From: Symbiodinium natans
Lineage: Eukaryota; Sar; Dinophyceae; Suessiales; Symbiodiniaceae
DNA: 64,000 nt
Direction: 5' to 3'
Assembly: GCA_905221605.1 (NCBI GenBank)
Contig: CAJNDS010002210.1
Location: forward strand, 299,501 to 363,500
Of the stretch, positions 53,901-56,900 are shown one piece after another (within the stretch, counting starts at the first letter, position 1; the number at the start of each line of letters is the position of its first letter). The notes under the pieces were generated by a model. That model did no database searches, had not been told where the DNA came from, and worked only from the letters and a program-made list of their open reading frames with translations. The position numbers were made by a program, and so were the translations under genes.

Positions 53901-56900
53901 AATTGTAGGACAACTTGGGGATCTAGTTCCTTGTCATCCATGAAGATCGCAGAGGCCGTGTGCTTGATGTCCTGCATGAAGGCTTCGATTGTTCCATGTG
54001 CCCAGCTCTCCTTCTCGGCCGAGTGATGCACAAGAACATTCACATTGCTCATGAACTCATGCACTTGCTCTGACACGAAAGTCTTTGCTGAGTCCATGAG
54101 AACCACCTTTGGTTTTGGGAACGTGCCCAACCAGCGCTCGGAGAAGGTCCGGATGAGATCCTGTCCAGACTCCGCCCTCATCTGCAGGAAATCGTATGTG
54201 AAGAGAGGAGCTACCACTCTCAGTTTTGTGGCCACGTCCATGAAGCCAATGAACTTCACCTTGATTCGTTGCCCAGGTGGAACCCATTCGCCAGCATCTA
54301 TTGCAACCGCTTGCCAAGCTGCATACTGTTGGTGCGTGGCCGCTGGAGGAACTTGACCCGAGCTTGTTCCACCCGACTTGAGGCTTTGACATGCCGGGCA
54401 TCGGTAGCCCCTGGCCACTTCCACTTTCCAAGGTTCGTGTCCAGCTTCCTTGACGATCTGTGCCAAGTTGCGGTTCGAGGGATGACCTGCTGCCTTGTGG
54501 AACCTTGCTACCTGGGCTTCCCATGCTTGGCGGACTTTGTCAGGCACTTGCATAGGACTTGCTTCAGTAGACACATGCTGGTCATCGCCAAGATCACGAC
54601 GACGAGCACTGCTGTTGGACCCATTGGGATCATTGCCAGGAGATACGTTGGGATCGTTGCCAGGAGATACGTTGGGATCGTTGCCAGGAGATACGTTGGG
54701 ATCGTCGCCAGGAGATACGTTGGAATCGTTGCCAGGAGATACGTGGGGATCGTTGCCAGGAGATACGTGGGGATCGTTGCCAGGAGATACGTGGGGATCG
54801 TTGCCAGGAGATACGTTGGGATCGTTGACAGGAGATAAACCTTCTAAGGGAAAGGCCTCCATCTTCGCGTCTCCTGAAGCCCCACGTGGTAGATTGAATC
54901 CCAGTTTTTCCAACATCTGCACATCGGATGCTTTCATCTTGGGGAACATCCGTGTTGTGAAGACAGCGATACCAATCCTGTAACCACGCCATTTCTGTGA
55001 AGCATGCCAGCACTTTGGGTCGAGGCTCACGAACTTGCCTTTGGCATTGACAATGTGTCCCCGAACCAACACCCCTTGAGGATTTCGTCGTTTCACCACA
55101 GGCTGTCCATCTGGAGGCTCACCTTCGACCCACAGTCCGCCGGCTTCGAATTCTCCCAGAGCCATGAAGTAATTTCTCGTCTGTGGCATGTTGTTGACGT
55201 CGCGATGAACCTTGGCCGCGTGGTTGTAGTTGATCATGATGCTCGTGAAGGTGGCCTTGGGCAGAGCCTTGCGCACAAAGCCCGTGATGTATCTAGTCAG
55301 TTCGGTGTATCGAAGAGTCCGAGCCGTGACACCACCGAAAGCTCCATAGGAGTAACCACCAAGAAGGAAGCTAGTGACTCCATCTTGCGTTCCTCGTAGA
55401 GCACAAACACGACCAACTGCACCTCCCATATTTCTCGCCTCCAGGAGCACTTGCTCAAGCGTGGTCGTCGTAAACGATTGTCTCTGAATCGCAGCTTTCG
55501 CCATGTCATTCACCTTGTTGGCTGAGAAGATTGATGACTCTTTGGGGATGGTTGCCATAGCTTCAGCATCCAGCTCCTCTGCCATCGCCTCGTCAAACTC
55601 ATCTTCGGTGTCGTCGCGTTGCACCACTCCGTCAACTGGCAGTTCTCGTGCTTGCACAAGTTGAAGATGTCGGGTTGGTACCGTGTCCTGTCTCCAGAAG
55701 CGTACGATGGACTCCACCATGCGCCAGGGATAGTATGAGCTCTTGACCGTCTCATCTCCCTCGATGATTCCATGCTGATGGTTTCCAGGGCATAGTTTTG
55801 ACCGGAACATGTGATGGAAACGCTCATCAGTAGTCTTGATCAGCCATTTTTTTCGAAGGAAGAGCTCACCAGCGTGGTCCTTGAGTCCATAGCAGCATCC
55901 ATCCACTCTACAGGACAGCCACGATTCCATCCGGTTGCCGAAGTAGTTGTCGAGGTCGATCAGCGGCTGCTGTTTCCATCCATAGCATGGCCATGGCCAT
56001 TCAAAGTACACATCAACCTCATCGCCTGTGTTCATCACCTCTTTGATGAAGTTGTTGCACTCCCATAGCATGCGACGTTCTTTTCGACGGTAGGTTTCCA
56101 GCTGTGCCTTCCGTTCAGCCGTGTTGTAGTTCACCGACGTCCAGGCACACCATTTCGTGCAAGGCAATGAAAACCATATCCTTCGCGGCTTCCGCTCCTT
56201 GTACAGGAGTCGCAGCCGCTTCCAGGTCTCCTTGTCATAGAGGTCGTAGCCCTCGGCGAGGTTGATCCTTCGGGGCGCCAGGCCATATTGGGTCGCAGCT
56301 TCTGACAACCAGGAATGAGGAGCACACGCCACTTCCCAAAGACCGTCTCGATCATGGCAATGTAGTCCCATGAGCATTCCCGAGAGCATGGTCGTCATCA
56401 TCACGCTCATCTGCATGATTTTCTTACCCATGAAGATTGGTAATGGTTGGCTTGTAGTAGGCCTTGTGGTTGTCTTCGTCGTGGATCGCGTCGAGGAGAT
56501 CTTCAGTGATGAAGCCCCTCCTGCTCGTAGGCCACTGCCAGGTCGCCGTCCAGGGTCTCGGTGGCCATCGACCAACTGCTGGTTGAGGGACTGTCGGTCA
56601 TCACGACCTTCGGCTTGGCGGCATTCCCCTTGGTGATCTGCTGTCCAATCAGGTGCCTCAAAGACTCCTCGGCGTCGATCTTCCGCTGCATGGCCAAGCA
56701 GATCTCCGAGGTGGGTCGCGCTCCTTGCATCAGTGGTTCCAATTCGGCCAGCATCCTTGTCACCATTGCTGGGTTCTCCGTCTTTGTTGAAGATGCCGCT
56801 GATCCCTTCCTGGGGACGTACTCCAACCTCAGGTTGCACACCGCACAGTGGATCCATTGCCCATGAGGATTCATCTTCGCCTTGGACGCCAAGTGCGTCC

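Follow-up and report, generated by a model that had tools for sequence, protein, structure and literature searches.

A Symbiodinium natans copia retrotransposon whose polyprotein carries a predicted C5-cytosine-methyltransferase fold and a TET/JBP-like oxygenase

We analysed a 64,000-nucleotide stretch of the dinoflagellate Symbiodinium natans (assembly GCA_905221605.1, contig CAJNDS010002210.1, positions 299,501 to 363,500; hereafter the window) and found that it contains an intact, young Ty1/copia retrotransposon, whose polyprotein carries two extra blocks between protease and integrase. The first block (MT) is predicted to adopt a C5-cytosine-methyltransferase (C5-MTase) fold, while the second (OX) resembles the TET/JBP oxygenases, which use 2-oxoglutarate (2OG) and Fe(II). 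From sequence comparison and structure models, we give a probability of about 0.55 to the reading that this is a copia element with an MT-OX cassette, whose predicted enzymes act at the C5 position of pyrimidines in the DNA of the element. Both blocks had been proposed in a first-pass annotation of the sequence, and they are confirmed here by the reading frame, by structure models and by genome-wide matches; its residue numbering (D596, C1137 in SLPC, FEWPWP at 1189-1194, H1455-x-D1457, H1522, R1531 and H1691) proved exact, and its interpretation as a whole is supported by the comparisons and models described below.

The interval first singled out, 54930-56360, lies on the minus strand and corresponds to residues 1070-1547 of one 2874-codon frame (50945-59569). 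This frame has the domain order of Ty1/copia elements (gag CCHC, protease, integrase, reverse transcriptase (RT) and RNase H), as seen from Pfam matches together with the protease and RNase H, which were recognised by eye; the assignment is based on Pfam CCHC, on RVT_2 (below its cut-off) and on a weak rve match. A pair of TG...CA long terminal repeats (LTRs) and a 5-bp target-site duplication were found in two independent insertions, the second of which (C2434:536044-545103) is likewise bounded by identical LTRs and by a GAATC duplication of its own, and contains an open stretch of 2843 codons. Its 300-bp flanks are dissimilar to those of the window element, while the two elements differ by 15 mismatches over two main aligned pieces (99.8% identity). 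Since the LTRs are identical and a nearly identical second copy has its own duplication, the element has moved recently. The same evidence, one uninterrupted frame and a second copy with its own duplication, led us to reject a frame artefact or an annotation fusion. The 5-bp duplication is GAATC at both insertions (2/2), and a target preference is possible.

The model of OX (pLDDT, a per-residue confidence score, 88.6) is a double-stranded beta-helix 2OG oxygenase, as the first-pass annotation had anticipated, with NgTET1, CcTet, FTO, AlkB and TET2 as its nearest structures and TET proteins on top. The HxD...H iron site and 2OG-binding Arg of TET/JBP oxygenases are present in the predicted model and are conserved across 69 sequences, namely 47 proteins from databases in which OX is complete (among them P0002, the element's own protein) and 22 further copies from the same genome, which together comprise 67 distinct sequences and 60 clusters at 80% identity. 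N1460, at Asp+3, is invariant, as are the three iron ligands, and we take it to be the equivalent of TET2 N1387. The invariance of these residues, together with the abundance of both blocks in the genome, led us to reject a chance motif. NgTET1 and CcTet (5cg9, 7w5p, 8jkk), whose active sites have the same HxD...H...R set, are the best VIA structural matches of OX; unlike OX they are free-standing enzymes, with identities to it of 18% and 13%. Furthermore, 13 of 21 OX rows matched Tet_JBP at E <= 1, with no other 2OG family listed. We infer that OX would oxidise DNA pyrimidines, either 5-methylcytosine (5mC) or thymine, the latter to 5-hydroxymethyluracil (5hmU).

In the case of MT, all 50 listed VIA-align matches of the model (pLDDT 89.5) are C5 MTases, and C1137 and E1190 occupy the catalytic places of the fold. 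MT shares its fold with DNMT3A/B and M.HhaI, and its motifs fall in the same order, whereas sequence identity is 5-10% and motif VI reads EWP in place of ENV. The ratio of non-synonymous to synonymous change (dN/dS) was low in the two countable own-genome pairs, at 0.059 and 0.107 for OX and 0.040 and 0.049 for MT, although synonymous divergence (dS) was already high in these pairs (0.68-1.48), a stop in the MT of L026 was skipped, and the remaining pairs are far diverged at silent sites. In the L024/L026 pair dS is 1.38 in MT against 0.68 in OX, perhaps owing to recombination between elements.

Both blocks are abundant in the 759-Mb genome (2543 contigs), for which we scored the best 150 of 1578 first-look candidates for OX and 146 of 551 candidates for MT. 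This revealed at least 144 MT matches at E <= 0.001 and at least 150 OX matches (worst listed E 5.6e-21), mostly in long open frames. Among the best 150 OX places, compared with the 144 listed MT rows, 25 directly follow an MT row, as in the window, and 34 lie ahead of one on the same strand, at a distance of over 3 kb. OX thus occupies several slots in copia polyproteins of this genome: at C69, one of the 34 and read in pieces, a protease-like motif is followed by OX, and in another piece MT comes after an RNase H-like stretch. At C1740, taken from the OX places with no listed MT row within 9 kb, the part that was read shows an integrase-like end (by eye), then OX and RVT_2. Some MT rows lie in giant frames, of 4000 to 7861 codons. 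One of these, read in part (L041, C69:705000-711500), has an RNase H-like stretch, MT and then a Tpt1/KptA-like RNA 2'-phosphotransferase domain (PF01885, E 1.8e-4, below cut-off; 3.1e-6 and above cut-off in the database protein P0086), as well as a stretch resembling SGNH hydrolases by eye.

With both blocks as query we found 85 database proteins, of which 47 match the OX profile in full and three in part. The named relatives are mostly from Symbiodinium (several strains), with Durusdinium and Effrenium for MT alone; two records, P0004 (S. natans) and P0005, are the same over OX and RT, and the OX of P0005 is that of the own-genome locus L020. An Amphidinium carterae protein, P0085, has the order rve, MT, divergent oxygenase and RVT_2, its oxygenase showing HVDRNN and H...GERYS by eye and matching the OX profile weakly, at E 9.5e-5 over the second half. 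Where an integrase motif was found, the stretch from MT to integrase measures 274-348 residues with OX against 46-143 without it. On an RT tree of 68 rows (41 OX-bearing), the presence of OX needs four changes (gains or losses), two of them forced by well supported branches, compared with a mean of 21 after shuffling, and there is one supported OX-lacking clade of 18 rows. No relative of OX or MT was confirmed in viral contigs, nor of MT in prokaryote genomes, where MT was the block searched, at the sensitivity of that method; these searches give no support to the idea that the sequence came from a virus or a prokaryote.

Several results weigh against the reading of a DNA-modifying cassette. 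The best OX score fell short of the curated Tet_JBP cut-off (28.7 against 34.9 bits, with six of ten rows matching), for which reason we use the label 'TET/JBP-like', and the family was matched neither by the window copy's own OX nor by nine distant copies and P0085 (0/10). No Pfam methyltransferase, DNA_methylase (PF00145) included, was matched at E <= 1 by any of 17 MT rows, and we therefore speak of a 'C5-MTase fold' and not of a 'PF00145 member'. Foldseek, unconvincing by itself, returned nothing below 0.001 for the MT model, with glutamate-receptor domains on top, so that the C5 call rests on the VIA-align matches and motif positions. Because neither block of the window copy matches Pfam, the identification of both rests on relatives and predicted structures. 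In addition, the frame is broken within the fetched stretch in 10 of the 30 own-genome loci read (L009-L038), 91 of the best 150 OX places have no listed MT row within 9 kb, and the MT Cys is replaced by F, Y, S, A or G in 18 of the 50 OX-bearing polyproteins. Other searches added little: PDB sequences gave mostly no match, the A1 profile finding CcTet only (E 0.27), while with the A4 profile CcTet (E 0.96) ranked below a nucleoporin (E 0.3); a search of NCBIfam gave nothing informative; in PHROGs, a single member matched MT (0.023), with a phage DNA methyltransferase as the counterpart; and an OX profile search of a large protein database, whose length limits leave out polyproteins, was uninformative. 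(Alignments A1 and A2 hold 14 and 17 rows from 30 loci of the MT search, with near-duplicates and broken copies omitted.)

We considered whether the two blocks act instead on the element's RNA, through m5C and its oxidation or by repairing methylated RNA within the particle in an AlkB-like manner, comparable to the AlkB domains of plant RNA viruses. We regard such a role as improbable, since no 2OG family other than Tet_JBP (itself below its cut-off) appears among the Pfam matches, and since the structures matched by the MT model are C5 MTases that act on DNA.

The first-pass annotation had suggested that the two blocks may be a writer and an oxidiser of DNA bases. Both folds are indeed predicted, but a strict pair in which one enzyme writes and the other oxidises is not general, because the MT Cys is replaced in 18/50 and the OX site is kept without that Cys in 17 of the 47 polyproteins with a full OX; nor, given the 91 places mentioned above, is the pair obligatory. 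Its expectation of conserved active sites held for the H/D/H ligands of OX and in part for the MT Cys. Where this Cys is lost OX would be independent of the element's own 5mC, and to be retained there it must be useful on host 5mC or on thymine. In the RT tree Cys loss is seen in 14 of 41 OX-bearing and 2 of 27 OX-lacking rows, a possible association with OX presence that comprises two independent pairs on well supported branches (four on all); five of the ten rows with Phe at this position are near-copies of each other. We also looked for mutual exclusion between loss of the MT Cys (17/47) and loss of the OX Arg (4/47); the absence of double losses is not significant (probability about 0.15, by margins).

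On the RT tree, with OX-lacking rows included, the MT Cys has changed its state at least nine times, whereas the rest of the MT motif residues are nearly fixed. This would suit base binding in some MT lineages, and hence the idea that MT and OX have no catalytic role and instead help the integration machinery to bind DNA or to find its target. We think this the least probable alternative, as the OX iron ligands are invariant (69/69) and the 2OG Arg is kept in 65/69, neither of which a purely structural role needs. Replacement of Cys by Phe or Tyr yields S-L-P-F/Y, with E1190 kept, which resembles the x-P-P-Y/F of motif IV in N-methyltransferases; these variants may have changed their chemistry or taken on the binding of bases.

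Independence from MT raises another alternative: that OX is mainly a JBP-like thymine hydroxylase making 5hmU on retrotransposon DNA, the copia enzymes as a group being a source of dinoflagellate 5hmU, with MT as a passenger of greater age that is partly in decay. At Asp+3 the invariant Asn, presumably the TET2 state, with its 5mC contact, does not speak for thymine. The writer could also be a host gene; host genes were covered by one PF12851 scan of this genome, in which the control was silent. On the other hand, there are the 91 OX places with no listed MT row nearby, and all 17 proteins without the MT Cys keep the OX Arg. Known JBP enzymes hydroxylate thymine (PMC12730594), and the share of T replaced by 5hmU is 12% for S. 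microadriaticum and 62% for A. carterae, as cited by Marinov et al. 2024 (PMC11071213), two species that both have proteins with the OX domain (divergent in Amphidinium). The same source reports 5hmU in dinoflagellates since the 1970s and, in Breviolum, its enrichment on most repeat classes, most strongly Maverick; such levels and enrichment fit this role without proving it. Nowhere does the main text of that paper use the word JBP. We judge this alternative clearly less likely than the reading of an MT-OX cassette, though the strongest of the three competitors.

If the cassette does modify pyrimidines of the element's DNA, the element's protease would free MT and OX together with integrase and RT, and the freed enzymes could modify pyrimidine C5 in the element's own cDNA or new insertion. 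An intact MT would lay down 5mC, which OX could then oxidise, a sequence known from the methyltransferase-TET pathway of phages; in elements that have lost the MT Cys, OX would act on host-made 5mC or on thymine. The oxidised base might then block or redirect host silencing of the element. We know of no established writer of dinoflagellate 5hmU, for whose formation the OX-bearing elements are candidate enzymes. More speculatively, dinoflagellate copia elements of several architectures may carry a diverse TET/JBP-like family writing 5hmU and/or 5-hydroxymethylcytosine on their own DNA, the mass of copies being a main source of the oxidised thymine of dinoflagellate genomes. We hold this to be doubtful; if true, retrotransposons would be the makers of one of the signatures of the dinoflagellate nucleus. 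MT-OX elements also bear on how copia flourishes in these genomes.

Transposon-encoded base modifiers have so far been known singly. Fungal DNA transposons reportedly bear TET/JBP enzymes (Iyer et al. 2014). A recent fungal survey found its carriers among DNA transposons and some Helitrons and no retrotransposon with TET/JBP (PMC12730594, 2025); such elements resemble ours in encoding their own oxygenase, whereas OX is a retrotransposon polyprotein domain adjoining a C5-MTase fold. That paper also names phage base-hypermodification systems with a C5 methyltransferase and TET, which likewise unite both enzymes in one mobile genome, acting in sequence (an order only proposed here), but as separate genes with glycosyltransferases; in the window there is one polyprotein, with no glycosyltransferase among its Pfam matches. 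In Symbiodinium itself, DNA methyltransferases (DNMTs) lie inside LINE and DIRS elements (SymbioLINE-Dnmt and SymbioDIRS-Dnmt3; de Mendoza et al. 2018, PMC5890265), and there too a cytosine methyltransferase sits within a retrotransposon of the same host group. Those elements carry a PF00145 DNMT, while ours is an LTR/copia element with an MT undetected by PF00145 plus an oxygenase; its LTRs and copia domain order led us to reject membership of either group. The same paper states that Symbiodinium Copia elements lack any DNMT domain, and its main text uses the words TET, JBP and oxygenase (word-initial) 0 times. In the open-access literature we found neither a retrotransposon described with a TET/JBP-like enzyme nor a copia polyprotein described with a cassette of C5-MTase fold and TET-like enzyme.

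Table 1. Features of the element, in window coordinates.
Feature	Position	Strand	Basis or remark
5' LTR, 210 bp	59640..59849	-	100% identity to 50694-50903
3' LTR, 210 bp, TGCA...TGCA	50694..50903	-	100% identity to 59640-59849
Target-site duplication, GATTC on + strand (GAATC in element orientation)	50689..50693	.	5 bp
Target-site duplication, GATTC on + strand	59850..59854	.	5 bp
gag-pol single open frame, 2874 codons	50945..59569	-	first ATG is residue 55 (59407)
CCHC zinc knuckle (gag), residue 474	58106..58147	-	Pfam zf-CCHC, E 3.1e-7
Protease active-site motif VDCGATAS (D596)	57761..57790	-	recognised by eye
MT block, residues 1060-1320, C5-MTase fold (predicted)	55610..56392	-	structure prediction
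C1137, Cys at motif-IV catalytic place (SLPC)	56159..56161	-	Cys in 32/50 OX-bearing and 33/35 OX-lacking polyproteins
E1190, motif-VI Glu (F-E-W-P replacing E-N-V)	56000..56002	-	Glu in 85/85 polyproteins
OX block, residues 1336-1566, TET/JBP-like 2OG-Fe(II) oxygenase (predicted)	54872..55564	-	structure prediction and conservation
H1455-R-D1457, Fe(II) ligands (predicted)	55199..55207	-	H and D invariant, 69/69
N1460 (Asp+3), likely base-contact residue	55190..55192	-	invariant, 69/69
H1522, distal Fe(II) ligand (predicted)	55004..55006	-	invariant, 69/69
R1531, 2OG-binding Arg (predicted)	54977..54979	-	43/47 database proteins and 22/22 own-genome copies (65/69)
Linker of 24-bp tandem repeats behind OX, (SPGNDPxV)n	54624..54837	-	96 bp (four units) shorter in second copy
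Integrase core, rve (integrase residues 1691-1851)	54017..54277	-	weak Pfam match, E 0.033; zinc motif starts at 54499
Copia-type reverse transcriptase RVT_2, residues 2340-2519	52013..52552	-	Pfam E 9.3e-6, 25.8 bits, below cut-off of 31.6
RNase H motif region	51254..51451	-	recognised by eye

Elsewhere in the window, a frame that is open for 1384 codons lies at the edge (3-4157, plus strand) and gave no Pfam match at E <= 0.01. Telomere-like units, CCCTAAA (433) and TTTAGGG (237), occur in both orientations at 17550-48330 and 61900-63020; these stretches fall in the inner part of the contig, and the element sits between two of them.
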